Below, piece after piece: positions 3,631 to 24,400 of a stretch of 33,858 nucleotides of DNA. Every line of letters starts with the position of its first letter. Positions within the stretch are counted from its first letter, which is position 1. The notes beneath the pieces are model-generated. The model was not told the origin of the DNA. It saw only the letters and a program-made list of their open reading frames with translations, and did not search any database. Source of the DNA: a virus; IMG/VR virus record IMGVR_UViG_3300047510_000938, positions 1-33,858 of that record. One strand, given 5' to 3'. A program made the position numbers and the translations under genes.

Positions 3631-5655
3631 TTAGCGTTTTGCCATTGCAATTAGTTCTTTGAATCTATCCGCATTAAATTCTGGATAGTCGTGACCTTCT
3701 TGATTTCTATCGTCGGTGTATTCTATCATATGATTCAATACATCTTTCATGGATTTTGGACCAAAGCTTGTTCCTAATCTTGACAACACTGTTCCAAGTT
3801 CTGCCATTTGATTGTAATCTCTATCATCCATTTGATCGCCCGAATTGATTTTCTTTTTGATCATTTGTGCAATTTGTGTAGCTTTGCGAGCAACATCGCT
3901 TATTTCATGTGATGGCGATTGAACTTCGCCTTCGTTAGTTTTCTTTTTAAACTGTGGAGGCACTTGCCCTTTCTTTGGCTTACTACCTTTTTTCTTACCA
4001 GCGTGGTCGTCTTTGCCGGGCTTTTTATCAGCCCAGTCTGGAACACCATCGCCGTCGGCATCTGGTTTTTTCTTTTTCTTTTCCTGTAGTGCTTTCCAAA
4101 GAGTTTCTCTAATACCCATTGGATTATCACCGCCTGCTGTTGCAGGATATGAACCTTTTTCTTTGTGTAAGTCGTTGCCACTTGGAATACTTGCACTTAC
4201 ATCATTCATGTATGTCTCGTCTGGTTCGGTTGTAGCATCTCCAAAGTCGCCGTCATCCACTTCTTCTGTAGCAAGTTCTTCAGCACTTATCATGCGAATC
4301 ATATCGCCCATATCAGGTTCGCTAGGACCTTGCTTTGCAGCACACGAACTGCATCCGCAGCCGCCCATATGACTGTCTGTTTGATTGATCATTGCAGTGT
4401 CAACTGCTTTGGCACCGCCTGCGCCCGCTAGTTGCATGATTCTTAGCAATTCTGCTACTTCGGCAGAACTATCAGCATTTAAACTTATATTCATACTTGC
4501 TTCGTTTAATTTTTTCTTGTTTGATATTCCTGCCAATTTTGTTATTCCTTCTACTAGTGCGTTGTTTGTATTATTTGCACTTTCATTTCCTGCAACTCTT
4601 GCTGCGGCTTGCTGTGCTGCTACTCTAGGATCATTGGGTCTTACTCTCACAAGAGCGTTACTGTTGCCTACAATCCACACCATGCCGTCTCCGGCATCTG
4701 TTCCTATACGTGTTCTTCCTCTTGCATCAGTTTTCGCTACGGCAGCGGCGGCTTGAGGATCAACTAGTCTAGCTGCTGGTCTAGCTGCTGGAGCCGGTGC
4801 ATTGCCTAATCTGCCAGGTGCGGTGTTTGTTGTACCAGGTCCGCCGGTTACTGCTCTATTTTGCAATGCTGACAATGTTTGACGTCCAACAACACCGTCG
4901 GCTTGAATTCCAGCATTTTGTTGGAACTGACGTACTGCTGCTTCCGTGTTTGACCCAAATACTCCATCTACTGCATTACCGCTCATACCCAACGACTGTT
5001 GTAATACTCTAACAGCTTCGCCTCTACTGCCTCTGCGTAAAGTTTGTGTAACTTGACCTAAGTCTGGACCGCTGGTTTCCTGTCCTGGTCTAGTTGGCTG
5101 TGGATTAGTAGCAGTTGGTTCTGCCGCGGTTGGTTCTGTTGCGGTTGGTTCTGCCGCGGTTGGTGTTGTAGGTGGCACTGCTGCGGTTGGTTCTGCTGCG
5201 GTTGGTGTTGTAGGTGGCACTGCTGCCGGGCCGCTGGTTTGTTGTCCGGGGCGTCTAGGCATATCTTCTGGAGCAGCTCCACTAAAGCGAATGCCATCTA
5301 ATGCTGTTTGAGCGGCTGCGGCATTTGCTGCACCTCGGGCTGCTGTCCCCCTTGGAAGAGTATCGGGTATTGACGCAATGTCTATAATTCCTGGGCGAGA
5401 TGTAGGATCTCCTCCACTGCCTAATCCTGATTGTACTCCAAAGATTCTATCTCTAATTGCTCTGTTGCTAGGGTTCTGAAAAACGTCATCACTATCTTGT
5501 TTTGCTTGAAATAGCCATTTATCTACCCCGCCAGCATCCTGAACCATTTGTTGCAAACGGGTCATTTCGGTATCGCCAAGAACTGAACTAGCTCTTCTAA
5601 AAAATTCTTGATCGTTTACGGCTTCGTTTATTTTTGTAACTTCAAAAATTTTCAT
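3631..5655 (-). CDS. Peptidoglycan-binding-domain protein with low-complexity linker (674 aa)
   Basis: Residues about 207-265 form a classic PG_binding_1 domain (LRRGSRGEAVRVLQ, then DGVFGSNTEAAVRQFQ, then DGVVGRQTLSAL), a cell-wall-binding fold usually attached to lysins or virion proteins. No catalytic lysis domain is visible. Residues 141-196 are a Pro/Thr/Ala/Glu-rich repeat linker. Near the C-terminus are a CGCSSC cluster (433-438), a Lys-rich segment, and D-A-D-G-D-G-V-P-D (532-540), which resembles a calcium-binding DxDxDG loop. The start follows AGGAG by about 7 nt and sits 1 nt after the stop of the preceding 185-aa gene, so the two are translationally coupled. The N-terminus (MKIFEVTKINEA) resembles that of the 185-aa protein (MKTFVEYLNESK). 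A virion protein that contacts the cell wall is the most reasonable inference. Confidence 0.8.
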   Translation of the reverse strand: MKIFEVTKINEAVNDQEFFRRASSVLGDTEMTRLQQMVQDAGGVDKWLFQAKQDSDDVFQNPSNRAIRDRIFGVQSGLGSGGDPTSRPGIIDIASIPDTLPRGTAARGAANAAAAQTALDGIRFSGAAPEDMPRRPGQQTSGPAAVPPTTPTAAEPTAAVPPTTPTAAEPTATEPTAAEPTATNPQPTRPGQETSGPDLGQVTQTLRRGSRGEAVRVLQQSLGMSGNAVDGVFGSNTEAAVRQFQQNAGIQADGVVGRQTLSALQNRAVTGGPGTTNTAPGRLGNAPAPAARPAARLVDPQAAAAVAKTDARGRTRIGTDAGDGMVWIVGNSNALVRVRPNDPRVAAQQAAARVAGNESANNTNNALVEGITKLAGISNKKKLNEASMNISLNADSSAEVAELLRIMQLAGAGGAKAVDTAMINQTDSHMGGCGCSSCAAKQGPSEPDMGDMIRMISAEELATEEVDDGDFGDATTEPDETYMNDVSASIPSGNDLHKEKGSYPATAGGDNPMGIRETLWKALQEKKKKKPDADGDGVPDWADKKPGKDDHAGKKKGSKPKKGQVPPQFKKKTNEGEVQSPSHEISDVARKATQIAQMIKKKINSGDQMDDRDYNQMAELGTVLSRLGTSFGPKSMKDVLNHMIEYTDDRNQEGHDYPEFNADRFKELIAMAKR
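5112..5226 (-). repeat. Short tandem coding repeats (Thr-Ala-Ala-Glu-Pro linker)
   Basis: Degenerate 15- and 42-nt units encode repeats of TAAEPTA and AAVPPTTPTAAEP. A 29-nt stretch is exactly repeated at 5156-5184 and 5198-5226, an offset of 42 nt or 14 codons. Such repeats can change copy number by slippage without breaking the frame. Confidence 0.75.
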
Positions 5656-7194: not shown

Positions 7195-7568
7195 TAATAT
7201 ACAATATTTCTTTCTTCGCTAGTAGTAGCACGATTTTCTATTGCAAATCCAATACTGCTTATTCTACTTCTATTTGAGTTAAGTATGGTTGCAACCAGTT
7301 TACTAATAGAAACTTCGTTTAATCCTTGCAATGTGTCCAATAATTGGAAAATATTTACATTGTCAATTTTTGCTTGTTGTAACAAAACAGTAGCCACAGC
7401 AATAGCACTGTTGTTATCGAATCCTCTTTTTACAAAGAATCCAACCACACTATCCACTTGATTGCTGGTGACGCTGATTTTTTTACTAAAATATTTGTCA
7501 AAGAATTCTTTGACTTCAGCAGCACTGTCTGGTAATTTATTAATACTTGGATCTACAAAGCTGCTCAT
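7194..7568 (-). CDS. Conserved late protein of unknown function (124 aa)
   Basis: Function is not recognised. The sequence is mostly helical, with a hydrophobic heptad-like pattern through residues 15-95 (AAEVKEFFDKYFSK, then AIAVATVLLQQA, then VNIFQLLDTLQG) and a short polar C-terminus. There is no signal peptide. It is locked between the tube-like gene and gp4 by 1-nt stop/start overlaps on both sides (TAATG), so all three should be made in fixed proportion from one mRNA. The context points to a small tail or head-completion structural protein; this is inference only. Confidence 0.75.
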   Translation of the reverse strand: MSSFVDPSINKLPDSAAEVKEFFDKYFSKKISVTSNQVDSVVGFFVKRGFDNNSAIAVATVLLQQAKIDNVNIFQLLDTLQGLNEVSISKLVATILNSNRSRISSIGFAIENRATTSEERNIVY

Positions 7569-8629
7569 TATCTAGTTCTCACTGGTACAGTTGAAGTTAT
7601 TGAGTTTGGAAATGGATCTTTTGGTAGCACAAATCCCGAATTTTGAGTTACTGTATTTGCTGTTGCTATGTTTGTACTTGGTTTATTTGTATTGATATTT
7701 TGTAAGTTTTGTAGTATTCCTATGCCTGCAAGAATAGTATTTGAATCTACTTGTCCATTTCTAACATCATTCCACACAGTTGATATACCGTTGACCAACC
7801 CGCCAATTGTGAATAAATCCCCAATGTTATTGGGTTTATTACTAAATGTTCCATATGATAAATCATAATGTGCAGGATCTGCAAATCCAGCTGGTTCATC
7901 AACTGCGGTTCTTCCACGACCATAAATTACAGCTTCATAGTTTATTCTCATGGTATTTTTAGTAAGACCAGTTTCGCTTTGACTCATAGTATCGTGACTC
8001 ATATTACTGATCATAGGATTAATTAATGTAAATGCAGTGTGTTCTGGTCTAGCGTTATTAGAATACAATTGATAAACACTGATACTGTTAAAAAATGGAG
8101 TACTGTTAGATCTATTGTTATCTAGTCCGTATCTATATTTGTTAGCGTCCTCGCCTCTGTACATAGAATGGTAATAAGCTTGGGGAACAGTTGTATTTGG
8201 CTGTCCTCTGCTGTTTTTACTTGCATAATTTGGATCTTGATAATAGTATCTAAAATACGCTTCCCATAGCAGTGTAGTTAATCCTGCCATATCGTCGTGA
8301 AATACCAGTTGTACTGGTTCGTAGCGTACACGAGTTTGCACAAGTTTTTTTCTATTGTATTGATTTTTTTCGTCTACATCAACACTGAATGTGGGCAAAT
8401 CTACAGTTTCTACAAGTAAGTTGAACTCTCTTTTATTCAATAGATTTTGTACTGTATATCCTAAACTTGCAATTGCAGATTGATTAACGTCTATAACAAC
8501 ATGATATAAAAATTTAGTCTTAGGACTAAGTCGCATATTATTGCGAACATACAAGGCATCAGCATGAGCATAATCTGCTAGTGTGCCTGCTCTGCTATTG
8601 TTATCAAAAAAAGGTGTATATCTCGACAT
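7568..8629 (-). CDS. Tail-tube-like / baseplate tube-initiator-like protein (353 aa)
   Basis: Residues about 70-125 (VDLPTFSVDVDEK, RKKLVQTRVRYEPVQLVFHDD, LTTLLWEAYFRYYY) and about 225-240 (MRINYEAVIYGRG) follow the strand-helix pattern of the tail tube fold shared by T4 gp19, gp48 and gp54. In T4 gp54, a similar 'V.FHDD...L......Y' segment and a late 'FDVTFAYRVM' strand occupy matching positions. At 353 aa it is longer than gp19 and close to gp48/gp54. It follows gp19 in the same direction but is separated from it by a strong terminator and has its own late promoter 4 nt before the ATG, with no Shine-Dalgarno sequence. The last 70 residues are Asn/Thr-rich. It could be the tube initiator or a second tube-like protein; the exact T4 counterpart is uncertain. 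Confidence 0.65.
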   Translation of the reverse strand: MSRYTPFFDNNSRAGTLADYAHADALYVRNNMRLSPKTKFLYHVVIDVNQSAIASLGYTVQNLLNKREFNLLVETVDLPTFSVDVDEKNQYNRKKLVQTRVRYEPVQLVFHDDMAGLTTLLWEAYFRYYYQDPNYASKNSRGQPNTTVPQAYYHSMYRGEDANKYRYGLDNNRSNSTPFFNSISVYQLYSNNARPEHTAFTLINPMISNMSHDTMSQSETGLTKNTMRINYEAVIYGRGRTAVDEPAGFADPAHYDLSYGTFSNKPNNIGDLFTIGGLVNGISTVWNDVRNGQVDSNTILAGIGILQNLQNINTNKPSTNIATANTVTQNSGFVLPKDPFPNSITSTVPVRTR

Positions 8630-8717: not shown

Positions 8718-9347
8718 TTAACCGGTAGCACTAGTACCTGCGTTGCCTGTTGAACGCTGTTGCTTGGTTCCATTGATACCTACGCCAATGCCTAACTGTA
8801 CAGCATTATCATATTGAATAGTTAATGTAACTGTAGTAGGATCGTTGTTTGCATATGCTAACGCACCGTATTCTACGTTGGTTAGGAAACAACCATATAG
8901 TTCCCATGTTTCAAGTACACCTGGAGTATTTGCTCCATTACCACCGTCGAGAATTTCAATACGTTCTACGAACTTGTAATCAATACCGCTTGCGGCGCTT
9001 GATTGTTCAAAAAAGTCAAATTGCTTTTGAAGCTGTTCGCCAACCATCTTTTGTACACTACCATTAACATCGTCACGTAGTGTAATATTAACAGTGTTCC
9101 ATGTATGTTTGCCAGCAAGGTAAATTTTGCTGTTGTACACGTCAAGTTGAATTGGGTCAAACTGTAGTGTAGGTCTAGTTGCATCAATAACTTGTTTGGT
9201 TAGTTCTTGAGTTTCTTTGCTTACACCAAAGTTTTCCAGTGTTACACGGAAACGATATTGCAGTTTAGGCATTAGCAATCCTTGATTGCTTGCGCTGCTA
9301 TCGTTTGCCAAAGGCACTGTTAAATTTAGTAGAGTTGAGATTGCCAT
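8718..9347 (-). CDS. 19: Tail tube protein, T4 gp19-like
   Basis: This is the major inner tube subunit, polymerised under the contractile sheath and the channel for DNA. The 209-aa length compares with 163 in T4. Visible family features are the early YRFRVTLENFG strand (residues about 31-41), RPTLQFDPIQLDVYNSKIYLAGKHTWNTV (spanning about 53-81, ending in the strand ITLRDDVNG) and WELYGCFLTNVEYGALAYANNDPTTVTLTIQYDNA toward the C-terminus, the standard tube-protein ending. The gene follows gp18 with a 63-nt gap holding a hairpin, a CATAAATA late box and a good AAGGAG ribosome site 9 nt before the ATG, allowing extra gp19 synthesis. A strong terminator follows. Confidence 0.93.
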   Translation of the reverse strand: MAISTLLNLTVPLANDSSASNQGLLMPKLQYRFRVTLENFGVSKETQELTKQVIDATRPTLQFDPIQLDVYNSKIYLAGKHTWNTVNITLRDDVNGSVQKMVGEQLQKQFDFFEQSSAASGIDYKFVERIEILDGGNGANTPGVLETWELYGCFLTNVEYGALAYANNDPTTVTLTIQYDNAVQLGIGVGINGTKQQRSTGNAGTSATG

Positions 9348-9410: not shown

Positions 9411-12400
9411 TTATAGACCTGATATTTCCCCTGTGTTTTTCAAGCGTAGTGGAATGTAGATGAATTCAACTGCTTTTACTGGTTCAATCGCAATATCAAC
9501 ATAAAGTTCATTTCTGTCAATTCTTGCAGGTGTGTTATTGGTTTCGTCGCATACAACTAGGAAGTCGTACAATGCTCTTAGACCAACCAATTCAACCATC
9601 AAGCTTTCTACCTGTTGTTTGATTTCGTCACGTGTAATCTTATCGTTTGGTTCAAACAAGTATGGCTTTGCTAGACTGTTTAGCTGACTGCGTAGATATA
9701 CCACAAGTCTTGCAACGTTGATTCTATCCAACGCACTTGCATTTCTTGCACGAGTCTTTTGTCCAAATACTGTTAATCCAGCACCAGTTAGGAAAGTGAT
9801 TGGGTTAACATTATTTTGATACAATGTATCTCTTTGGCCTTCGTTAAGAGCAATACTTACAAATTCGCCTTCGTTGTTGACATAACCTGTTGCAGTAGCA
9901 TTGGTTACACCGCCACGTCTTGTACCAGCTGGTGCAAACCATGGATAAGCAACTTGGTCATTTAGTGCCATAGTGCGTAGTACCATATGACTTGCTGGAA
10001 CAACAATGTTGTTGCCTGCGTTGTCGCTGGTAAATCCACTTGGATAGTAAATGCCTAGGTATTCATCTCTGCTTACAAGTCCACGGTCGTTATCTTCAAC
10101 TGCTAGATTAACGTTTGCTGCCCAGTTGTTCAATGTAGTAGCATCTGGTCTTAAACGGAATGGTGAATCTCCAACAACAAATGCTGTTAATCCTCTATCG
10201 TAGTTTAGGCTTACCATTTCACCAATTAGTTCTGGATAAGCTGGGCAAGCCATCAAGTTAAACAAGCGTGTTTCATTGTCACGGATATCTTGGTTACTGT
10301 TAACCAATGCTTGTAATGCTTGGACAACAACTTTACGCTGTGCTTTACGTCCAAAGCTACCTGCACCATCAACTTCGTTAGCACTTTCAGTTACCCAACG
10401 ATGTGGATAATAACTGGTCATTGCTTCGCCGTTGTTGAAGCGTTCGTTGTCAGCATTAACATCAATCCAGTTACGCTCAAAACGCTTTACGTTGAATCCG
10501 CTTCTACGTAGATTCCACAATAGCATACCACGTGGATATAATGCTGGATCTGGAGCATCTGGGTCTAAGAAGTTGCTGCCGAGTAAATCTGCAATTTCTC
10601 CAGCTTCGCCACTGTTTGCGCCGTTTGTGTTATAACGTGCATCTGCAAACAGTATACCGTTTTCTGTGGTTTGATCAGTGTTATCTATCAATGTCCAAGG
10701 ATATGATCCTGCATCTTTAAGTGTTTTGTTATAAAGATAAACAGTTGGATAGTTTTCTAAATCAGCTGTGCTGATCCAAATATCGCCTGTTTGCAGAGCA
10801 GTTGATCCATCGCTTTGTGTAGTCGGTTCGCTTGCACTTACAATCGGTCCGTTTACATCTGTATTGTTGGCATAATATGGTGATGCGCTGTTTTTGTAGC
10901 CTACCCATGTTGTACCGTTATGAATCATTAGATCAACTTCGTCAACAATGCTGCTATACCATAGAGCACCTTGTGCTGCTAATGCAGTTGGAGCATCGTT
11001 GCTTGCAGTGTAAACCAGTGGCTTCCACAATGTAGCACGGAATTGGTCGCCACCTTCGTCGTACAAGTTAGCTGTACCGGCGCCAGTTGTTATATTAAAT
11101 CCGCTATAACCAATCTCAGCAAGCAATCCATCTTGATCTACAAGAATAATATCACCGCCAAGTTTATGTGTAATAACAACACGGTTTTGACTATCCACGC
11201 TAGCCACAACATTAACCAGTCCTGCATCATTAATAGCTTTTGCAATTACATCTGCGTCTGCGGCAGCACCTGTTAGTGTTGCACTAATAGTAATTGCTGC
11301 TGTTAGGTTTGATGAATTTTTTAAAGTTTCTTGTACAAATATTCGATATGTTCCAGCAGCTACTGAACCAGCTACAACTTTACTACTTACAACATTGGTT
11401 GCACCAGATGCTGCTCTTGTGTAGATTTTAAAATCTGCTTTTGGTAAATCAAAGTTTCCTGCTGTGGTTTCTGCATCAAGGTTTGATTGTACATACAGAT
11501 TGCCTTGTATAAGTCCTGCGCCGCCCCCTGCTCTATCTAGATCATAGATTGCAGTTTGATTATTTGGTGCAATAGGTGCATCTGAGCTAACCCAAGTTTC
11601 TGTTGCTGAACTCCATGAGCTTACTCTCCAACGAGCACCTGCATTCGGCTCTGTGGTTTTAAGCCAAACACTTCCAGTAGGACGAGGATTTGAGTCTGTT
11701 CTCTTAAATGCAGGAACACTGGTATGTTTGCTAATCTGCAAACTTGGAGCATAATATGTTCCAGCTGTAATACCAAGATTTGCTAGAGGAGTACCTGTAC
11801 CATCAGTTAGTACAATGTTATCATTGAGTTCACCGTTTGTGTAAAGGCTTATTAAGCCATCTGCTAGATTTGCAAAAATTCCGCTTGCATTTGCGGCTGT
11901 GTTAATGTCAGCTACTAGTGTTGTAGCGGTACTTCCTGTGGTAGTAACAGTAATGTTAGTGCTATCAGTTAGACCAATTGTAAATGTTTGTCCAGCGGCT
12001 GCTGCGCTAAGTGTAGCAGTCACCAACGGCCAGCTAAGTTTCCACTGTCTGCTACCAACATGTACCCAAGTACCTGCGGCAACTCCTGCACTTGTATTTC
12101 CTGAAGACTTGTACCAAAGTCTAGGTTCGTTGCTTACTGCAACCATAGCATAATCGCCAATAGCGCCTACGCTGCCCTTTGGTCTATAGCTGTAGCCGCC
12201 GCCAGCTTCGGTTTGTGTTGCATCAGTAATAACAATAGGAGATTTGTTAGTAAATGTTTGACCGCCAGTGGTACTAATTACCGCATTGTTCCATTCGAAA
12301 ATACCCCAGCTGGTGCTTTGAGTATCTAGCCAATATGTGCCATTAGCAGGGTCAGCTGAAGTTGGAGTAGCACTGGCATTTAGTGCTCCTAAATCCATGT

Positions 12401-12737
12401 CAGCACGTACAACAAATGCTCTGTTGCTGATTCCTAAATACGAATAAGCAGCTTGTAAGCCGTATTCGTTTTGCTCGCCACCGTTGATTGGATTATTGTT
12501 TGCATCAGTAAGGAAACGAGGATCGCCAAAGGTTTCCACCAAGTCTCTCTGCGATGTAAGCAAATAAACCTGACCTGCATTTGCTTTAAGTGTACCTGGT
12601 GCAATGCCGGTGCCTGCACCGTTGGTTTTGTTTTCTGCTGTCGCTACGAAAATAATAGGGGTAGTTCCTGGTTCAGCCGGAGTATAGAAACTCTCGTCAA
12701 TAACTGATACCTGAACACCTGGTGATACTAATGCCAT
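9411..12737 (-). CDS. 18: Tail sheath protein, T4 gp18-like, with large insertion
   Basis: This is the contractile sheath subunit. The N-terminus (VSPGVQVSVIDESFYTPAEPGTTPIIFVATAENK) is the typical sheath start. Residues about 55-112 and about 730-1108 carry the conserved sheath core, including the late KPYLFEPNDKITRDEIKQQVESLMVEL and the C-terminal YVDIAIEPVKAVEFIYIPLRL that forms the handshake strands. At 1108 aa it is far longer than T4 gp18 (659). The extra is an insertion at about 120-700 made of short Trp-rich modules (GTYWLDTQS, GSVWLKTTEPN, GALWYSS, GDIWISTADLE) and two flagellin-IN-like segments (about 244-327 and 470-549). These probably project from the sheath surface. The start has an AGGAG site and an ACTAAATA late box 35 nt upstream. 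There is no sign of frameshift. Confidence 0.95.
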   Translation of the reverse strand: MALVSPGVQVSVIDESFYTPAEPGTTPIIFVATAENKTNGAGTGIAPGTLKANAGQVYLLTSQRDLVETFGDPRFLTDANNNPINGGEQNEYGLQAAYSYLGISNRAFVVRADMDLGALNASATPTSADPANGTYWLDTQSTSWGIFEWNNAVISTTGGQTFTNKSPIVITDATQTEAGGGYSYRPKGSVGAIGDYAMVAVSNEPRLWYKSSGNTSAGVAAGTWVHVGSRQWKLSWPLVTATLSAAAAGQTFTIGLTDSTNITVTTTGSTATTLVADINTAANASGIFANLADGLISLYTNGELNDNIVLTDGTGTPLANLGITAGTYYAPSLQISKHTSVPAFKRTDSNPRPTGSVWLKTTEPNAGARWRVSSWSSATETWVSSDAPIAPNNQTAIYDLDRAGGGAGLIQGNLYVQSNLDAETTAGNFDLPKADFKIYTRAASGATNVVSSKVVAGSVAAGTYRIFVQETLKNSSNLTAAITISATLTGAAADADVIAKAINDAGLVNVVASVDSQNRVVITHKLGGDIILVDQDGLLAEIGYSGFNITTGAGTANLYDEGGDQFRATLWKPLVYTASNDAPTALAAQGALWYSSIVDEVDLMIHNGTTWVGYKNSASPYYANNTDVNGPIVSASEPTTQSDGSTALQTGDIWISTADLENYPTVYLYNKTLKDAGSYPWTLIDNTDQTTENGILFADARYNTNGANSGEAGEIADLLGSNFLDPDAPDPALYPRGMLLWNLRRSGFNVKRFERNWIDVNADNERFNNGEAMTSYYPHRWVTESANEVDGAGSFGRKAQRKVVVQALQALVNSNQDIRDNETRLFNLMACPAYPELIGEMVSLNYDRGLTAFVVGDSPFRLRPDATTLNNWAANVNLAVEDNDRGLVSRDEYLGIYYPSGFTSDNAGNNIVVPASHMVLRTMALNDQVAYPWFAPAGTRRGGVTNATATGYVNNEGEFVSIALNEGQRDTLYQNNVNPITFLTGAGLTVFGQKTRARNASALDRINVARLVVYLRSQLNSLAKPYLFEPNDKITRDEIKQQVESLMVELVGLRALYDFLVVCDETNNTPARIDRNELYVDIAIEPVKAVEFIYIPLRLKNTGEISGL

Positions 12738-12820: not shown

Positions 12821-13324
12821 CTATAGTTTATCCATGTGATTCATTAGCTGTGAAACATTAAACTCAAGTTCTTCTAATGATCCATTATTGTCAATGGTAA
12901 AATCTGCCATCCATTGCTTAAGACTCATGCTACTAGGATCTTCTTTAGGAAGATGATCTGATCTGTCGACCCAAACTGCATAATCAAACACACCAGTATT
13001 CTGCATAGCAAAAAATTCACGCTTGTTGCGTAATCCGCAATAAATGTCGTGTGCCCGAAATATTTCTCTGCCTAAGCGACTTGCATCAGGAACATTATAA
13101 GCGCAGATAGCATCATACCATTCTGCTCTGTGATTGTGCCGGTCAGCATAACACTCTTCTTCATTATAATATCCATAACTATCCTTTAGCATATCAAAAA
13201 TAAAAAGTTTGCTACAAAACTGACTACTACTCTCAAAGCTATAGCCATATTTGTCGCGAAGCATTTCACAAACAGTGTCTTTGCCATGTCTGCCATGGCC
13301 GATTATCAGTAACTTTTTTCTCAT
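12821..13324 (-). CDS. Deoxynucleoside monophosphate kinase-like P-loop protein
   Basis: The family transfers phosphate from ATP to dNMPs to feed phage DNA synthesis. The N-terminus KKLLIIGHGRHGKDTVCEML has a P-loop GHGRHGKDT (residues 9-17) with the GKDT ending found in T4 gene 1 dNMP kinase, and the late segment DNNGSLEELEFNVSQL is like 'TNDGSLEELFSKI' of that enzyme. VWVDRSDHL (about 117-125) is a plausible strand and acidic loop. Length is 167 aa against 241 in T4, so it is a compact form. It is an early-type metabolic gene placed between neck gp13 and sheath gp18, in the same direction, 30 nt after gp13. No late box or Shine-Dalgarno sequence precedes it; an 18-bp palindrome covers its start codon. 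Another P-loop nucleotide kinase is possible. Confidence 0.75.
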   Translation of the reverse strand: MRKKLLIIGHGRHGKDTVCEMLRDKYGYSFESSSQFCSKLFIFDMLKDSYGYYNEEECYADRHNHRAEWYDAICAYNVPDASRLGREIFRAHDIYCGLRNKREFFAMQNTGVFDYAVWVDRSDHLPKEDPSSMSLKQWMADFTIDNNGSLEELEFNVSQLMNHMDKL

Positions 13325-14384: not shown

Positions 14385-15539
14385 ATGCCACGTTTAAGTT
14401 TATATAGACCAGAAAAAAGCAATGATTACGACTTTATAGATGCAACCGTCTATGAGATGTTTACAGTCGGAGGCACTGATGTTTTGGTACACAAATATTT
14501 AGGCCCAAAACTAATAGCAGAAGGTCGTTCTACTGCTGAGCAGCCGTTGTATGATGCTGTAAAAGAAACCAATATTCAAGATCTACTGTTTTTAGAAAAC
14601 AGAGATAGAAAATACGACAACGATATATACACATTGCGTGGGCATTACAATTTACAAGATCAAGATTTTAACCTTAGTCAGTTTGGTTTGTTTTTGAGCA
14701 ATGATACTATATTTTTAACTGTACATATCAACAGTAGTGTTAAAACCATAGGTAGAAAACTCATGAGCGGAGATGTCATAGAATTGCCGCATATGAAAGA
14801 CGAATATGCAGCCAATGATTATAATATTGCATTGAAGAGATTTTATGTGATAGAAGAGGTGACTAGAAGTGCCGAAGGATTTAGTCAAACCTGGTATCCA
14901 CATCTATACAGACTTAAATTAAAACAAATTTATGACGGTCAAGAATACAAAGATATCCTAGACTTGCCAGCAGAAGAAGGCAGTGCAAATACACTGAGAG
15001 ATTTATTGAGTACCTATGAAAAAGAGATGCAGATCAATGCGGCTGTAATAGCGCAGGCTGAAGATAACGCTAAAAAGAGCGGGTACGAAACAACACAATT
15101 TTTTACTGTTAGTGTATTAGACAATGGAGAAGTTGCAATTGTTAGTGCAGACTACAATAGTTTGTTAGCAGATGGAACAATTACTGCTGATACAGTTTTT
15201 GTTAATCCATCAGATACCGGATACAAGGGCTATTTAGTAGGCGACGGATTTCCGCCAAACGGTGCTCCATATGGTGTTGGATCAGGATTTCCTACTGGTG
15301 CTGATTCAGGTGATTACTTTCTAAGAGTGGATTTGTTACCCAACAGACTGTTTAAATTTGATGGCAATAACTGGCGCAAGGTAGAAGATGCTGTTCGTCA
15401 AACATTAACTCCAAACAACGAAAGACAAACACTCAAAGGCAGCTTTATTAACAACACTAGAGTTAACACTATCACAGGTGATGAAGTTGTTGAAAGACAA
15501 GCCCTTAGCAAAGCACTTAAAATCAAGGCAGATAATTAA
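14385..15539 (+). CDS. 14: Neck protein, T4 gp14-like
   Basis: gp14 works with gp13 to complete the neck before tail joining. The N-terminus MPRLSLYRPEKSNDYDFID, the VGGTDVLVHKYLGP segment (residues about 32-45), FLENRDRKYDNDIYTLRGHYNLQDQDFNLSQFGLFLSNDT (about 69-108) and SGDVIELPHMKDEY are hallmark features of marine T4-like gp14 proteins, which are longer (384 aa here) than T4 gp14 (256). The region about 245-310 is Gly-rich and looks like an appended linker or loop. I chose the ATG at 14385 over a TTG at 14370: it gives the family-typical start, and the TTG lies inside the promoter palindrome. The plus orientation is opposite to gp13 and gp18. gp15 overlaps its stop by one base. Confidence 0.88.
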   Translation: MPRLSLYRPEKSNDYDFIDATVYEMFTVGGTDVLVHKYLGPKLIAEGRSTAEQPLYDAVKETNIQDLLFLENRDRKYDNDIYTLRGHYNLQDQDFNLSQFGLFLSNDTIFLTVHINSSVKTIGRKLMSGDVIELPHMKDEYAANDYNIALKRFYVIEEVTRSAEGFSQTWYPHLYRLKLKQIYDGQEYKDILDLPAEEGSANTLRDLLSTYEKEMQINAAVIAQAEDNAKKSGYETTQFFTVSVLDNGEVAIVSADYNSLLADGTITADTVFVNPSDTGYKGYLVGDGFPPNGAPYGVGSGFPTGADSGDYFLRVDLLPNRLFKFDGNNWRKVEDAVRQTLTPNNERQTLKGSFINNTRVNTITGDEVVERQALSKALKIKADN

Positions 15540-17194
15540 TGCAATATTTTTATGACGGTCAGATACGCAGATATCTCACACAGATAGTTAGAGCATTCAG
15601 TAACTTTAGTTACCAAGATGCCGATGGCGATTTGCGTACTGTGCCAGTAATGTATGGTGACATTTCCAGACAGGTTGCTAGTATAATTCGAGACAACAGC
15701 GAAAACAAATTGCCCAGTGCACCAAGAATGGGTGTTTATATAACTGGCTTGCAATTGGATCGCAGCAGATTAAGTGATAGTAGTTTTGTAAGTAAAATAA
15801 ACTTGCGTGAAAGAGATTTTGACAGTGTTGCAGGCGATTATGGAACACAACAGGCCAAAGGCTATACAGTAGAAAGATTGCATCCAACACCTTATACACT
15901 GAGTATTAACATAGATGTATGGAGCAGCAGTACTGATCAAAAATTACAGATACTGGAACAGATCTTTATGTTGTTCAATCCAGACTTGGAATTTCAAACC
16001 ACTGACAACTACATAGACTGGACCAGCTTGAGTGTGTTACAAATTGAAAATATTAATTTTAGCAGCAGAACTATTCCAGTTGGAACAGAAAGTGAAATTG
16101 ATGTTGCTACACTAGGATTTACTGCGCCTATTTACATTTCGCCGCCAGTTAAGGTTAAGAAACTAGGAATTATTACAGACATTATTACTAGTATATTTGA
16201 TCGTGAAGCCGGCACTATTAGTTTAGAAGGATTTAATCCTCCTACAGATGGCAAGGCATGGAGTTCAAACGGCGTTACAGTACTTCCAGACGGTACTGTG
16301 GTTGATCAAAATGGCCTTACCATGACAGTTAGCAGTGGCAGCGGTAGACTGGATCTGAGTAGTCCTATTGTGGTAAGTTATAGAAATTTTGATCTTAGTG
16401 TGCAAAATGGTATTGCTAAACTGGTTATAAACAAAAAATTACGTTTAGGAGAGATCAACTGGCTTAATGTTCTTGAAGCAGAGGCTCCTGCAAAGTATCA
16501 AAATGGCATTAGTCAAATTCGTTTGTATAGAGTAGAACTAGGAACACCTATCATAGGTACCTTTACAATCAGCAATGATAAATTTGAAATGGATATAGAC
16601 TACGATATCGATACTTTACCCAGTGATACTGTTATTCAAGGACCTGCAAGAAACAATGGCAGTATTGATTTTGTAATCAATCCTATCACTTGGAACCCTA
16701 CAAGTTTTAAAACTGTAGGAGTAAGAGCGTTACTTACAGGACCTGTCGGTGGTAAGGTTGAAAGAAAATTTAATCTAACAGAAAAAACAACAAGAATTGA
16801 TACTGATGTAGATGAATCTATAGTTTATAGTCATCAAGTTTTTGTCAACGGAACACCAGTTGCTACTAACAGCAAAAACATAGACGACAAGTATGTTATT
16901 GAATTTGCTACAGCGCCAAGCATCAACAGCTCAATACGTTACGAACTATATCTCAACGAAGACGGTGCAGATGCTTGGAAAAACAGCAACGGCAGCGATT
17001 TTGTTGCTGACCAAAATGATATAGTTGAGTGGGACGGATCGCGATGGCATATTGTGTTTGATGCCAGCGAATCGACACAGATTGTATATGTTACTAATTT
17101 GACAACCAATCAACAGTTGTACTGGAACAAGTATTTTTGGCAGGCCAGTGTCGATGGATATTATCCAAGAGGTACATGGGAACTTGTGCTTTAA
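15539..17194 (+). CDS. 15: Tail completion / sheath terminator, T4 gp15-like
   Basis: gp15 caps the tube and sheath and joins tail to neck. The first 225 residues follow T4 gp15: YFYDGQIRRYLTQIVRAFSNF, RTVPVMYGD, LPSAPRMGVYITGLQLDRSR, and HPTPYTLSINIDVW followed by QKLQILEQIFMLFNPDLEF (about 118-152), then the paired strands LSVLQIENINFSS and IDVATLGFTAPIYISPPVKVK. At 551 aa it is twice the T4 length (272). Residues about 230-551 are an extension of beta-rich segments ending in VEWDGSRWHIVFDASES and YWNKYFWQASVDGYYPRGTWELV, resembling tail-fibre or adhesion-type modules. The ATG overlaps the gp14 TAA (TAATG), so the two are translationally coupled. Confidence 0.88.
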   Translation: MQYFYDGQIRRYLTQIVRAFSNFSYQDADGDLRTVPVMYGDISRQVASIIRDNSENKLPSAPRMGVYITGLQLDRSRLSDSSFVSKINLRERDFDSVAGDYGTQQAKGYTVERLHPTPYTLSINIDVWSSSTDQKLQILEQIFMLFNPDLEFQTTDNYIDWTSLSVLQIENINFSSRTIPVGTESEIDVATLGFTAPIYISPPVKVKKLGIITDIITSIFDREAGTISLEGFNPPTDGKAWSSNGVTVLPDGTVVDQNGLTMTVSSGSGRLDLSSPIVVSYRNFDLSVQNGIAKLVINKKLRLGEINWLNVLEAEAPAKYQNGISQIRLYRVELGTPIIGTFTISNDKFEMDIDYDIDTLPSDTVIQGPARNNGSIDFVINPITWNPTSFKTVGVRALLTGPVGGKVERKFNLTEKTTRIDTDVDESIVYSHQVFVNGTPVATNSKNIDDKYVIEFATAPSINSSIRYELYLNEDGADAWKNSNGSDFVADQNDIVEWDGSRWHIVFDASESTQIVYVTNLTTNQQLYWNKYFWQASVDGYYPRGTWELVL

Positions 17195-17208: not shown

Positions 17209-17640
17209 ATGAATAAGATTATTTGCAGTGGTGCCCTATTTTATAGTCTAGACACAAAACGTTTTTTATTGTTGCACAGAGCGCAAGGTAAAAAGGGCAA
17301 TCTATGGGGATTGGTTGGAGGAACCAACGAAAGTTGCGAAACTCCTTGGGAGGGACTTCGAAGAGAAATCGAAGAAGAAATTGGCTCTGTAATTATTAAA
17401 AAAACAGTACCGTTGGAAACATTTATCAGCAACGATGACCATTTTCATTTTCACACATATCTTTGCGTTGTTGAAAAAGAATTTATGCCAGCTCTTAACC
17501 ACGAACACAACGGATATAGTTGGGTAAGTTTTGGCAATTGGCCAAAGCCGTTGCATCACGGATTAAACAATACATTAAAAAACAAAAACAATACTCAAAA
17601 GCTAGAAACTGTTATTCAGCTTGTGGACATGATTGCTTAA
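17209..17640 (+). CDS. Nudix hydrolase
   Basis: Nudix enzymes cleave nucleoside diphosphates linked to another moiety (damaged dNTPs, ADP-ribose, dinucleoside polyphosphates). The Nudix box is nearly complete: it begins at the G of GGTNESCE, keeps the Glu six residues later, and has REIEEEIG seven residues after that, so the metal-binding REx2EE core is intact. The usual final aliphatic residue after the last Gly is Ser here. Substrate cannot be told. I start at the ATG at 17209 (143 aa, MNKIICSGALFYSLD) because the frame upstream lies inside gp15. It follows gp15 by 14 nt with no clear Shine-Dalgarno sequence. Its 3' end overlaps the oppositely oriented 871-aa gene by 29 nt. Confidence 0.9.
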   Translation: MNKIICSGALFYSLDTKRFLLLHRAQGKKGNLWGLVGGTNESCETPWEGLRREIEEEIGSVIIKKTVPLETFISNDDHFHFHTYLCVVEKEFMPALNHEHNGYSWVSFGNWPKPLHHGLNNTLKNKNNTQKLETVIQLVDMIA

Positions 17641-20227
17641 ACTGTTCTAACAGCCAATCAAAGTTGTTGATTTTTGCCAATGCTGCTTTATCGTCTTTAT
17701 TGACTTCGCCATAAGCTCTACCTGCTTGTGCGCCTGCTATTGCATATTCTCCAAACGGTTTATCGCTACCACGTGTACACCATGCATTGAGTCTGAATTC
17801 AGTTTCTTCAGCAATCTGTCTATCAATTGCTCTGCTTGCAAGTTTTGCACATTCTCTAAATCCACTACGCCATGCACTAAATGGGTCTGTGTTAAATGCA
17901 GTTTTGTTGCTCATTTCTGCAATAGCTTTGAAATTTTTACTAATACTGGTAGTCATGTCCGGACTGTTTACGTCTACTGTTTTGGTCAATTCAGTCGGTA
18001 GCAGTTTTACACCACCGTATCCGTACACTAGACTGTTTACAGGATTATAGCTGCGCCATACATAAACTGTACTACGACCATCAACATCGTATCGAGCAAT
18101 CTGATAATTAAAATCAAATGTATCTAGTATTTCAGCATCTCCATCTACTACCCAAAACATTTCAGTATCGCACAGATTTGCAGCGGCAATATGTGCTTGG
18201 TGAATACCTTTGACTCCGTGTACACGTTTAGCATGTGGATAACGTTGTTTTAACAAGTTATAGTTTTGGTCAGCATTGGGCTCATTGCTGCTGATAAACA
18301 CAATGTCATATGGCTTAGGTTGACTTACAACTTGATCGTATTCTTTTTTAATTGCAAAAAATCTATATTCTATTTCACGCTGGCTTAAAGTATTGTGTCG
18401 GTTAACCAAACTTACACCGTCATAGTATTCACCATTTTTCCAAACATGATTGATTTTTCTTTCATATTGATTTTGATAAGTTATATAAAAATCCCAATCA
18501 AAGGTTTTGTCAACAACAATATCATTGTTAATCATAAAAAACATTTCGTTATCAGTTTGTTCTAGTGCAGTTTGATACTCAGCGTAGTTGTTTACTGTAA
18601 ACACAGGATACGGTTTAGGAACACTTGCTACAATATCCCATTCTTTTTTCTTGATGTAAAATCTATGTTCAACTTCTTTTTCGCTAACCAATAAATGTCT
18701 ACTGAACAACACAATACCATCTCTGTGTTCTCCGTTTAAAAACACATGATTTATTTCTCTATCATATCTATTATGATGACTAAAATACAAATCAAATACA
18801 AAATTATCTGCAACTTTTACATCGCCGGGCACACCCCAAAACAGTTCACTGGTTGAATTATACAATGCATTGGTATAATCGTCATAGTTGTTGATGGTAA
18901 ATTTATCGTAAGGCTTTGGTTGGCTAGCTACAACCGGGTGTTCTTTTTTATCGATATAAAATCTATGTTCTACTTCATTTTTGCTTACTTCTACACTGGT
19001 GCTGTGTAATACAATTCCGTCATAGCTGTCTCGATTTAAAAACACATGTGTAGTATTTCTGTCCAGTACATTTGTTTCGCTAAAATACTCGTCCCAAAGA
19101 AATTCATCTGCAGGTACAGTATCACTGGGAATACCCCAAAACATATTTGTAGTGCTGTTCTTTTTTGCATCTAAATAGTCTTGATAGGTGTCTATGATAA
19201 ACCGTTCAAACTGTTTACTTTGACTCACCGATTGTTCGTGCTCTATCCTGTTTGCTAAAAATCTATATTCAATTTCTTTAGAAGTCACAGGGGCATGTTT
19301 ACTATACAATACAACGCCATCATACTTGTTGCCGTTTAACCAAACATGATTGCGTTTTCTCAGTTGACTTTGATGGTCAATATAATAATCGAAAATGCTG
19401 TTGTCCAGTATTAGGATGTCCTGCGGAACGCCCCAAAACATTTCGGTTGTGGTTTTTTCTAATGCTTCTAGATATTGTTCATAGTTGTTGATTTCAAATC
19501 GATCGTATGGTCGCGGGTTGCTGGCCATAATTCGTATTTCTTTTTTGTTAACAAAAAATCTATGAGATAGTTCTTTTTCAGTGGCACTATAACTTTTAGG
19601 AACAAGCGCAACGCCGTCTAACCTATCTACATTGCCGTTGCCAAACACATGCACAAAGTCTAGACTCCATTCATCTGGATCGTAGCTGAATTTAAAGGTA
19701 TCTCTTACTATAACATCGTCGTATACCAACCAAAACATATCAGTAATACTACGTTGTCGTGCCTGTTCAAAACTTTCAACTACTTGCAACGTTGGAAAGC
19801 GTTCTACTAGTTTACTGTGCGAAGTTCTATCGTTACCTATGTAAAAAATATCAAAACGCTCTTTTCCACAATAAACATCATAGTCTCCGCAGATATAACT
19901 GTGTTTGACTGTAGGATAATCACCTGGTTCTGTTGGAACAAGTTTTACTCTTCCCCAGTCTTTGATTTGTCTGCTCTTTTTGTAAACATATGGAAATACA
20001 TGCACAGATTTTTCTTGAGTTTCGCCGGGTCTAAAGTACCAAGGAAAGCTATCATAAACACGAATTGTAGGATCAACTACCCAAACAAATTCAGATGTTC
20101 CACGATAGTTCGAAACTTTGCTGTCGTCGTAAACAACAGGATATCTATCAAAGATGTGATTCTTTAAAAAGTCTTGTCCGTTGTGCAACGGTGTTGAAAA
20201 CCGTTCGAATCTGTCAATAGCTCTCAT
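17612..20227 (-). CDS. Tandem glycosyltransferase-like repeat protein (871 aa)
   Basis: Seven related units are spaced about 100-128 residues apart, each anchored by a (M/L)FW-type strand followed by an acidic turn: FVWVVDP (47-53), MFWLVYDD (164-171), MFWGVPQD (263-270), MFWGIPSD (362-369), LFWGVPGD (462-469), MFFMINND (562-569) and MFWVVDGD (690-697). Each is followed about 30 residues on by HVF/HVW (76, 193, 294, 394, 494, 594; YVW at 723), then a DG(V/I) strand, and in units 1-5 by (H/Y)RF(F/Y/L). Only the last unit keeps D-G-D-A-E-I, a D-x-D typical of GT-A metal/nucleotide-sugar binding, plus a nucleotide-binding-like start (FISSNEPNADQN) and the acceptor-side segment up to about 815. 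The gene overlaps the upstream glycosyltransferase by ATGA. Interpretation: a multi-unit GT-A-like protein with one probable active site; substrate unknown. Confidence 0.8.
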   Translation of the reverse strand: MRAIDRFERFSTPLHNGQDFLKNHIFDRYPVVYDDSKVSNYRGTSEFVWVVDPTIRVYDSFPWYFRPGETQEKSVHVFPYVYKKSRQIKDWGRVKLVPTEPGDYPTVKHSYICGDYDVYCGKERFDIFYIGNDRTSHSKLVERFPTLQVVESFEQARQRSITDMFWLVYDDVIVRDTFKFSYDPDEWSLDFVHVFGNGNVDRLDGVALVPKSYSATEKELSHRFFVNKKEIRIMASNPRPYDRFEINNYEQYLEALEKTTTEMFWGVPQDILILDNSIFDYYIDHQSQLRKRNHVWLNGNKYDGVVLYSKHAPVTSKEIEYRFLANRIEHEQSVSQSKQFERFIIDTYQDYLDAKKNSTTNMFWGIPSDTVPADEFLWDEYFSETNVLDRNTTHVFLNRDSYDGIVLHSTSVEVSKNEVEHRFYIDKKEHPVVASQPKPYDKFTINNYDDYTNALYNSTSELFWGVPGDVKVADNFVFDLYFSHHNRYDREINHVFLNGEHRDGIVLFSRHLLVSEKEVEHRFYIKKKEWDIVASVPKPYPVFTVNNYAEYQTALEQTDNEMFFMINNDIVVDKTFDWDFYITYQNQYERKINHVWKNGEYYDGVSLVNRHNTLSQREIEYRFFAIKKEYDQVVSQPKPYDIVFISSNEPNADQNYNLLKQRYPHAKRVHGVKGIHQAHIAAANLCDTEMFWVVDGDAEILDTFDFNYQIARYDVDGRSTVYVWRSYNPVNSLVYGYGGVKLLPTELTKTVDVNSPDMTTSISKNFKAIAEMSNKTAFNTDPFSAWRSGFRECAKLASRAIDRQIAEETEFRLNAWCTRGSDKPFGEYAIAGAQAGRAYGEVNKDDKAALAKINNFDWLLEQFKQSCPQAE

Positions 20228-21465: not shown

Positions 21466-24400
21466 TTATTTATCCAGTAATTTTTCTACCATTGAACGTA
21501 GTTCATCGATTTGATTTTGTTGAGCTTTAAATGCCTCGATAAATGCACCTGCCATAGCACCATAGTTAACAGTTTTAATACCATCCTCTGTGGTGTGTAC
21601 AACTTCTGGGAAGTACTGTTCGATTTCTTGAGCAATAACACCCATATGTCTAGTTTCTTTATCTTCTAGATCTTTTCTCGTAAATGTTACACCGCGAATA
21701 CTTAAGATTTTGCTTAGAGGATCTGCAATAATTTCGATGTTGTCTTTTAAATTACAATCTGAGAATGCTGTAATTTCGCCTGTAGCAGTAAGATTACCTG
21801 TGGTTCTAGCAAAAGTAAATCTTGTTGTTGTATTATCTCTGATAAAGAGATCGCCGGTATAATGGTCAATAAATGTGTTTGTTCCGTTATGATAGAAACG
21901 TGTATCTGATCCTGTACCTAATCTCAGTTCAATGTTGTCACTAAATGTTAATGTGCCACCGACAATGTCTGCTACATCGCTGCGTAAGAAGCTAGTACTG
22001 TCGATACTATCCAGTGTATTAGCATTATCAGCAGTAATACCAGTTAATCCGCTACCATTACCAGTAAAGTTAGTGGCTGCTATGTTGCCAGTTATATTAA
22101 TACTGCCACTACCAGATAGTGTTCCGCTAAACGTATCGTTAGCATCACTGCGTATGAAGCTACCGCTATCTAAGCCATCGACTGTGTCTGCATCTAGCCC
22201 GCTACCAGTACCATCGTTACCAGCGTGCCACACTGTATGAGAGGCGTTAGTTACATTTTCATAGAATGTAAGTCCAGTTAGTCCACTGCCAATATCTAGT
22301 CTTTCGCTAGTAGCATCACTGGCAATACGCATTGTGCCGCCGTTTACATATTGGATGTATCCACGTCTTGTAGCACCTTGGTAGAACCCAATAAACGGAC
22401 TACCAGTAGCACTAGTATCAGAGAACTGCATTTGTTCACCGCTAAGACTGGTTGTAATCAGTCCAGTAACAGTATCAGCAGCATCACTGCGTACAAAACT
22501 ACCACTATCTAGGCTATCAAGTGTATCAGCATTAACATTGGTTAATCCACTACCATTACCGGTAAATGTATCAGTGCCAATGTTGATGTTGCCAAATCCG
22601 CTAGTGATTTCGCCTTGATTCAGAGCACCTGTGCCTGTTAAGTTACTGTAGATACCACTAATACGACCATTTGGTACAGTTCCGCTGCCTAAATTGGTTG
22701 CATTTAAAGCTTGTATTCCGGCGCCATTTGCAGTATTTAGACTGCCTGCATACAAGTCTCCTACTACACCCATGCCGCCGCCTACACGCACTGCACCGGT
22801 TGCTGTTGTGGTTGCTGCGCTAGTATCACTGAATGTTTTGATACCTTCCATGGTTTGGTTACCACCTAATCTAGCACCAGCAACTGTACCGCTGCTCAAG
22901 TTGCTTGCGTTTAGTGTGGTTAAGCCACTACCGTTACCTGTAAATGTATCTGTGCCGATATCGATGTTGCCAAAGCCACTGGTAATACTACCTGCATTGA
23001 GTGCTCCGGTTCCAGTGATACTCAATTGATGCTGTGTAACACCAGTTGCTTGGATACGTGCATCTGGTATAGTTCCACTTGACAAATTGCTGGCATTTAG
23101 TGTTGTAATACCACTACCGTCACCTGAGAATATACTGGTTCCGATGTTGATATTACCAAATCCTGTGTTGATACTACCAGCATTTAAAATACCTGTGCCT
23201 GTAATACTCAATTGATGCTGTGTAACACCAGTTGCTTGAATACGTGCATCTGGTATAGTTCCGCTGGTTAAATTACCTGCATCCATGTCGCCGATGAAGT
23301 TGTCTGCACGTATATCTTTGTTTACATACAATCCACCGCTGATCTTAACTGCGGCACTACCGCCAGCAAATGTTGAACCAGTTGCGTTTGTAGCATCCGT
23401 AAATGTTACAAGATTGTTTGATGCAAGAGTAGTAAATGCACCACTACTTGGAGTTGTATTGCCAATTGGTGTATTGTTGATTGAACTAACAAACAGTTGG
23501 CCGTCGATATACATATCTGCATTTGTGCGTAGATCCAGTCTAACAATAACTTCTGGATTAACCTGTCCTGCTAGTACAGCGGCAGCTTTGGTTTCACCTA
23601 TGGTCATTTGTCTTGCTGCTTGACCAAATGCAATGTTGGTTGCATTGTCTTTGAGCAAGTTAAATGTGCCAGTTTCGTCTGTATCAAGTGTGTTACCATT
23701 TACAAACAAGTTGCCTGCAAGGTTAACATTTGCATTAGCAATGTTAAAGTTACCAGTTGCTGCACCCATGTTAATTGTAGTTGCAGCACCAAATGCATTT
23801 ACAGTAGTTGCACCAGTGTTAGCAAGAGTAAATGTACCACCGCTAACACTTAGATCACTGAGTCCTCCAATCTGTAGATTACCGGTCACTGCTAGATCGT
23901 TGTTGATAGTGGTTGTACCACTTGCAGCACCAATACCAATTGTGGTACCTGCACCAAACGCATTAACAGTTGTGGCATTAGTGTTGAAAACATTAAAAGT
24001 TGTGCTACTAGTGCTTACACCACTTGTGAATGTTGGATTGTTTTGGAATACTAGAGCACCACTGCCGGTTTCGTCGCTAATTACTTCTGCTAACTGAGCC
24101 GATGTAGTTGCAGCAAATTGACTTAGTGGGTTACCAGTAATAGCAAGAGTGCCACTGGTCGGTAGTGTTATGCTAGTATTACCGGTGGTTGTTAATCCAA
24201 GACTATGCGCACCAGTGTGTGTAAAGTTTCCGCCAAGTGTAATAGTTTTGGTTCCATTGTTTACACCAGTACCGCCATATGTTGGTGATATAACAGTGCC
24301 TTGCCAAGTACCAGTTCCAATAGTTCCTACACTTTGAAGACTACTATTAACAACGTTTGTACCAAGTGTTGTACTGCTTAATACACTAGCATCGTTGATA

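Follow-up and report, generated by a model that had tools for sequence, protein, structure and literature searches.

A tail sheath gene, P0001 (1108 amino acids; 9411..12737, minus strand), raises the question of what an insertion of about 600 residues is, and what it might do, in a contractile tail protein. The gene lies in IMG/VR virus record IMGVR_UViG_3300047510_000938, a virus DNA of 33858 bases, which was analyzed at its full length and is referred to as the window. A first-pass annotation, made from the letters alone, had proposed a sheath containing two motifs of the Flagellin_IN type. Comparison of the sheath with its relatives indicates that these Flagellin_IN-like (IN-like) domains are discrete cassettes that have been gained, lost, stacked or replaced at no fewer than three sites, with the core undisturbed.

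The open reading frame was found exactly as annotated, on the minus strand, and its reading as a tail sheath held. In the PHROG profile search, phrog_10581 matched across the full length (residues 1-1103, E 4.8e-229). The sheath C-terminal domain PF17482 was found by Pfam at residues 1001-1097 (E 1.9e-16), and a PDB search returned sequence similarity to solved T4-type sheaths. The whole-protein model had a predicted local distance difference test score (pLDDT) of 86.9, and its core aligned with the T4-type sheath 9ev2 (Z 34.0, root-mean-square deviation (rmsd) 2.4, 336 aligned, model range 20-1090). Profile, core fold and tail-tube neighbors all agree with a contractile tail sheath of the phrog_10581 or T4 gp18 type. 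On these matches and the model, the protein is identified as the T4-type contractile tail sheath of a jumbo-type myophage, not a flagellar filament or cap protein. The phage carrying it is large and aquatic, and the annotated relatives, such as Phosso, Atu_ph07, PA5oct/Paride and RaK2, are jumbo myophages. At least 598 IMG/VR stretches encode sheath relatives; the locus scans covered the best 80 of these, from which family-wide frequencies cannot be derived.

In the whole-protein Pfam and PDB sequence searches nothing matched beyond the sheath core. When the sheaths of two relatives, L012 and L010, were compared in blocks of 40 residues, identity was 80-92% up to about residue 120, 19-72% between, and 90-100% past residue 720. 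Because identity falls near 120 and recovers near 720, the insertion was placed at residues ~116-715 (10593..12392, minus). The insertion proposed earlier is therefore real, although its size is nearer 600 residues than the ~580 first given. The core on either side consists of an N-terminal part, residues 1-115 (12393..12737, minus), which is conserved in relatives and aligns with 9ev2 from residue 20, and a C-terminal part, residues ~716-1108 plus the stop (9411..10592, minus), which contains PF17482 and resembles the T4-type structures. Within the insertion, the two modules are the most variable regions; L012 and L010 share 95% identity in the core vs. 37% in module 1.

Kinship of the modules with Flagellin_IN

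Module 1 occupies residues ~238-330 (11748..12026, minus), as delimited by profile, model and its absence from L108, L117 and L120. Module 2, with its N-terminal strands, occupies residues ~430-565 (11043..11450, minus), as delimited by its absence from L163, L143, L126 and L136; its IN-like core is at residues 462-541 (11115..11354, minus), where a Pfam match in the relative L023 and a match of the module-1 profile fall. Both motif regions described earlier (244-327 and 470-549) are present. In the whole-protein model, module 1 has the predicted elements E251-255, E262-265, H271-285, E287-292, E295-300, E307-312 and H317-320, and module 2 has E462-471, E482-488, H494-504, E510-514, E519-524, E530-533 and H538-541, so that the predicted order of strands and helices is identical. 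The two modules matched each other in hhalign at 95.7% (E 9.1e-9, 73 columns). Furthermore, a search of the window with the module-1 profile recovers module 2, at 474-547 of a stop-to-stop frame that is four residues longer at its start than the 1108-residue sheath, corresponding to ~470-543 (domain E 0.0049). By these profile comparisons, the two modules are homologs.

The relationship to Flagellin_IN (PF07196) was evaluated with alignments of both modules. The module-1 alignment (A3) held 37 of 40 representatives, L127, L158 and L167 being excluded for an insert that looked unrelated, and the module-2 alignment (A4) held 41 of 45, L106, L152, L172 and L175 being too divergent. At E <= 1, PF07196 was matched by 11 of the 37 module-1 members (best 2.4e-5) and by 16 of the 41 module-2 members (best 4.1e-5), while every other listed Pfam family was matched by two members at most. 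A control segment of the same proteins, residues 573-690, gave 0/37 Flagellin_IN matches. The control at 112-231 gave 3/37, and in Phosso and Atu_ph07, the two inspected singly, the match lay within an extra insert. Control regions compared as profiles showed no match to module 1, and none to the FliD IN segment. Flagellin_IN was not matched by three module-1 members, L119, L115 and L163, whose sequences look canonical on inspection.

The IN segment of 39 FliD proteins scored 23.8 against module 1, compared with a mean of 10.5 and a maximum of 20.4 in 60 column shuffles, and 24.2 against module 2 (shuffle mean 10.4, maximum 16.4). Three other FliD segments and two Trp-rich regions scored at the null level. 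The strongest sequence evidence for Flagellin_IN kinship, however, comes from modules of relatives that exceed the curated Pfam cut-off of 22.7 bits. Module 2 of L023, whose sheath is 67% identical to that of the window, reached 26.8 bits. In the L024 contig, of the window clade, the position of module 2 scored 27.2 bits, and that of module 1 stayed under the cut-off with 14.3. An insert at a third site in Phosso scored 28.4-32.3 bits, above the cut-off. Atu_ph07 scored 26.6 bits in the record scan, 23.4 on the segment and 19.6 on the whole protein, and the L154 contig sheath 22.6-23.2. Moreover, the window-clade module-1 profile alone finds the third-site domain in L084 (E 1.9e-6). Since both copies in the window go undetected by Pfam, the window sheath is not a Flagellin_IN member by its own score; its modules are divergent relatives of that family. 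The earlier label of Flagellin_IN-like is thus upheld by profile, by orthologous modules above the cut-off and by fold, although not by the window's own Pfam scores.

Other families were also considered. Ig-like (immunoglobulin-like) families matched single module members (Big_3_5, E 0.45; Ig_VWA7, E 0.022), and lectin-like names came up weakly, in no more than two members each (CCL2-like, E 0.014). Lone Pfam matches, among them SLT_beta in L115 and Kinesin in L022, were single and weak and were taken as chance. When the modules were searched as profiles against the PDB, all matches looked like chance (designed TIM barrels and a copper ATPase, for example). No convincing PHROG match came from the module regions of the window searched by themselves, and IN profiles matched no non-sheath reading frame among the retrieved loci. 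In the L154 record (G002), a second, non-sheath frame of 385 amino acids scored 24.5 bits against Flagellin_IN at 293830-293970, above the cut-off.

Module 1 was also modeled alone (pLDDT 91.2). In VIA-align, the top 16 rows were all flagellar cap or flagellin chains. The best match was FliD of H. pylori, 6iwy (Z 9.5, rmsd 2.1, 84 aligned), followed by Vibrio flagellins (Z 8.2-8.9) and E. coli FliD (Z 8.2). Phage proteins came next, namely XM1 (7.4 over 93 aligned, for chain 7kh1_A6, which we take to be the XM1 sheath), phiTE (6.9-7.2), Pa193 (6.5), E217 (6.0), A-1(L) (6.0) and T7 (5.2-5.4). Z values of 7-8 can be ordinary in VIA-align; the flagellar likeness is persuasive because the match list is uniform and the sequence evidence is independent of it. 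When the module was searched with Foldseek against the PDB, a T7 tail protein (E 0.007) ranked above FliD (0.064), with Ig-fold chains below FliD. In a search of viral models the second-best match was a tail sheath (E 3.2e-4). The modeled fold of module 1, to which this statement is confined, is that of FliD and flagellin outer domains.

The stretches around the modules are rich in tryptophan (Trp) and were compared by hhalign. Repeats W1 (residues 118-160; 12258..12386), W2 (338-392; 11562..11726), W3 (575-618; 10884..11015) and W4 (632-690; 10668..10844), all on the minus strand, matched in the pairs W1-W3 (95.7-96.8%, E 1e-8 to 2e-10), W2-W4 (96%, E 4e-9 to 9e-9) and W1-W4 (86-87%, E 4e-6 to 6e-6). 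A further repeat, W2b, found in relatives without module 2, matched W2 (79%) and W4 (72%). A possible repeat, W1b (185-234; 12036..12185, minus), gave weak matches to W2b (36.5%, E 4e-4) and W4 (31%, E 5e-4), and the remaining pairs, including W1-W2 and W2-W3, a weak match or none. The peptides GTYWLDTQS, GSVWLKTTE, GALWYSS and GDIWISTAD, pointed out in the first-pass annotation, do stand where it placed them, within these mutually matching repeats that alternate with the modules. The matches suggest that the Trp-rich stretches are a repeat-built scaffold between the modules, perhaps a duplicated pair, and module 2 appears to have been inserted within W2b. No known family was found that names these repeats, and none that would mark them as adhesin-like, as the first-pass annotation had proposed; the W3/W4 segment gave Pfam matches to Reg_prop (5/37, best E 0.01) and SH3_5 (3/37).

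Gain, loss and replacement among relatives

When 29 sheaths were aligned, L108, L117 and L120, though otherwise near relatives of the window sheath, showed a clean gap at residues 240-330, and L163, L143, L126, L136 and others lacked residues ~430-560. Among 118 distinct sheaths, 55 had both modules, 24 the second only, 19 the first only and 20 neither; these counts, like the site labels of the tree, were assigned by segment length and not by homology. A tree computed by a quick method from 77 rows, restricted to the core columns, placed eight rows without module 1 (L108-L124) in a fully supported clade within the clade that carries it, which is the window's own. Because the former is nested inside the latter, loss of module 1 in L108-L124 is the simplest account. 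By the length labels, presence or absence changed on the tree at least nine times at site B, six at site C and two at site A; the nine overstate changes of the IN module, since some rows have a different insert at site B. L127, L158 and L167 have a Thr/Val-rich insert without the IN pattern in the place of module 1, at site B. Taken together, the sequences suggest that site B accepts unrelated domains.

Phosso, Atu_ph07, L084, L154, L160, L165 and L166 have an additional insert that follows approximately residue 179 of the window sheath; Phosso and Atu_ph07 have inserts at two sites. Hidden Markov model counts gave three or four IN-type matches, some weak, in each of L154, L165, L160 and L166, with profiles built partly from the counted rows; the window-clade profile alone gave two or three per sheath in the same four. 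Window-clade profiles matched 18 of 64 rows outside L001-L080, of which ten (L108-L125, L153) fall in or resemble the window clade, L125 being absent from the tree.

The median ratio of nonsynonymous to synonymous substitution (dN/dS) over 56 close pairs was lowest in the core (0.05-0.06), intermediate in the Trp-rich parts (0.11-0.14) and highest in the modules (0.16-0.18). The modules evolve faster than the core, and all regions are under purifying selection. Positive selection on the modules was considered and is not supported by these values.

Known sheath decorations and possible roles

A single FliD-like domain on a phage sheath is already known. In Vibrio phage XM1, the sheath has an insertion domain (InD) that resembles the D3 domain of FliD by DALI and was called unique to XM1, and gene exchange from the host was proposed (PMC10457771). 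The XM1 sheath thus resembles that of the window in having an insert likened to FliD, but it is small and has one insert, whereas the window sheath has two related copies in a Trp-repeat scaffold and its relatives have more sites and copies. On the sheaths of Adele, phiTE and Sf14 there is a lateral domain, reported to be shared with FliD and flagellin as well as with nozzle proteins and capsid auxiliary proteins; like module 1, it is a beta-sandwich with a helix (phiTE chain 9cba, Z 6.9). However, it is the single lateral domain of a type 2 sheath, and the available passages of that report describe neither a sequence link to Flagellin_IN nor variation in copy number (PMC12846349). With XM1 and the phiTE-type sheaths each carrying one such domain, the earlier idea of a FliD-like sheath domain is not wholly new. 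Flagellin_IN itself, in the outer domains of FliD and flagellin, has the same element order as the modules and profile similarity to them; the window's copies differ in sitting in a contractile sheath rather than a flagellum and in falling below detection.

A survey of 112 modeled sheaths reported multi-domain sheaths in jumbo phages, with additions that are mainly Ig-like and for which adhesion or stability was proposed (PMC9230969). Its type 3 sheaths have, like that of the window, an N- plus C-terminal core and added outer domains, with most domains in Ackermannviridae and jumbo phages; they differ in that the additions are Ig-like, and in the passages available flagellin is named only for a likeness in overall architecture (PMC9230969). 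In crAss001, the auxiliary capsid protein gp36 has a FliD-like surface FD domain with 6iwy among its best matches, although this is a separate protein and on the capsid (excerpts of PMC10172136). The sheaths of Phosso, Atu_ph07, PA5oct/Paride, RaK2 and 121Q belong to the same family as that of the window (identity 36.9-48.8% among the matches listed) and either lack modules or carry them at other sites or in different numbers. Searches of the open-licence PMC literature yielded no description of a sheath with more than one IN-like module. New as far as searched are two or more copies per sheath, at least three insertion sites, repeated loss, multiplication and a sequence link at the Pfam level. 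That link connects a phage surface decoration with flagellar outer domains, where the earlier passages seen gave structural likeness only. Moreover, the extra mass of the oversized sheaths of large phages becomes, in this family, named and countable cassettes with natural presence and absence, and sheaths that share a core but differ in a module become comparable in adsorption, stability and contraction.

The N- and C-terminal parts of the protein together form the T4-type core, which assembles around the tube and contracts, as is established for the sheath family. The ~600 inserted residues appear to form the scaffold of homologous Trp-rich repeats, and by sequence Flagellin_IN-like domains, two in this phage, are inserted in its connecting stretches. 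These domains would face outwards, in line with solved sheaths, whose added domains lie away from the tube (PMC9230969), and the many copies along the tail could engage the host surface or its surroundings through weak, multivalent interactions before the baseplate binds. We give nearly even chances to the reading that the modules are accessory surface decoration with a putative adhesive role, adhesion being the inferred step. A broader picture can be offered more tentatively and is rather doubtful as a whole. In this jumbo-phage lineage, which is very common in aquatic settings, the sheath might be a display rack, a Trp-repeat scaffold with several sites where surface domains, of the Flagellin_IN type and others, are exchanged, stacked or dropped, so that the whole tail would be a fast-changing multivalent surface, putatively aiding the hold on hosts or waterborne material.

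Several results weigh against an adhesive, flagellin-like decoration. The window's own two modules gave no Flagellin_IN match in Pfam, with none for the whole protein up to E 10, none in the record and none for either module at E <= 1. The FliD profile matches are modest, with probabilities of 25.5% for module 1 and 16.2% for module 2, though above 60 of 60 shuffles. Foldseek against the PDB returned no match for module 1 at E <= 0.001, and a common fold need not mean a common function. The outer position would follow from topology and from published sheaths by analogy. Lastly, an arms race is not indicated by dN/dS, which is well under 1.

The possibility was considered that the modules mainly stabilize a long sheath by touching neighboring subunits, cementing discs or strands and tuning stiffness and contraction force, a role that would be mechanical rather than adhesive. 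This is a plausible minority reading. Stability was proposed for added sheath domains in PMC9230969, where domain II of phage 812 is quoted as contacting its neighbor; the crAss001 gp36 FD domain, of the same fold, packs on the capsid (PMC10172136); and the purifying selection on the modules would fit. However, relatives without module 1, or without both modules, have an unchanged core, so such contacts cannot be essential, and the modules are the most variable regions. An essential structural contact is disfavored because the modules are so easily lost.

The reading of the modules as mostly dispensable passengers, in which a surface fold widespread among phages inserts easily and is tolerated in loops far from the tube while doing little itself, is improbable. 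The repeated presence/absence changes, the high divergence and the unrelated-looking inserts of L127, L158 and L167 at one site are what this reading would expect. However, the purifying selection measured for the modules speaks against a pure passenger role; all 54 window-clade sheaths compared have module 1, and the cost of carriage would be large in a protein that is present in very many copies. Lastly, mimicry of flagellar cap or filament domains to engage the flagella, or flagellum-specific ligands, of motile hosts is very improbable, even with FliD and flagellin domains as the best structural matches, the flagellotropic phages Milano and 7-7-1 in the same match list and the host gene exchange proposed by the XM1 authors, as the fold recurs in T7-type nozzles, capsid auxiliary proteins and other phages' sheaths, and Flagellin_IN is an outer-domain motif rather than the polymerizing part of flagellin.

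Neighboring and other genes of the record

Downstream of the sheath gene are a tail tube protein (8718..9347, minus; phrog_4542, E 8e-52) and a second tail-tube-like protein (7568..8629, minus; phrog_13438, E 2e-17). Upstream are a deoxynucleoside monophosphate kinase-like gene (12821..13324, minus; phrog_139, E 6e-13) and a head-tail adaptor, with the terminase further along. In RaK2 and Paride the kinase likewise precedes the sheath and the tail tubes come after. A tail sheath stabilizer-like protein (15539..17194, plus; phrog_227, E 1e-18) has a long C-terminal extension; the family match covers residues 1-223 of 551, and this neck protein is likewise enlarged, by ~330 residues.

Three other genes on the minus strand encode repetitive or very large proteins. 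The 871-residue product of 17612-20227 consists largely of repeats of ~100 residues (by eye, a motif like EMFWGVP...NHVFLNG) and had no PHROG match at E <= 0.001; it adjoins a gene for 194 residues that matches phrog_1574, of unknown function. A tail-fibre-like protein of 3573 residues (21466-32187) matches phrog_5342 in several stretches (E 1e-171), and its gene contains a 186-bp tandem repeat at 22897-23262. A 674-residue protein (3631-5655), with an endolysin-family match at residues 172-286, is Thr/Pro/Ala-rich and has short tandem repeats.

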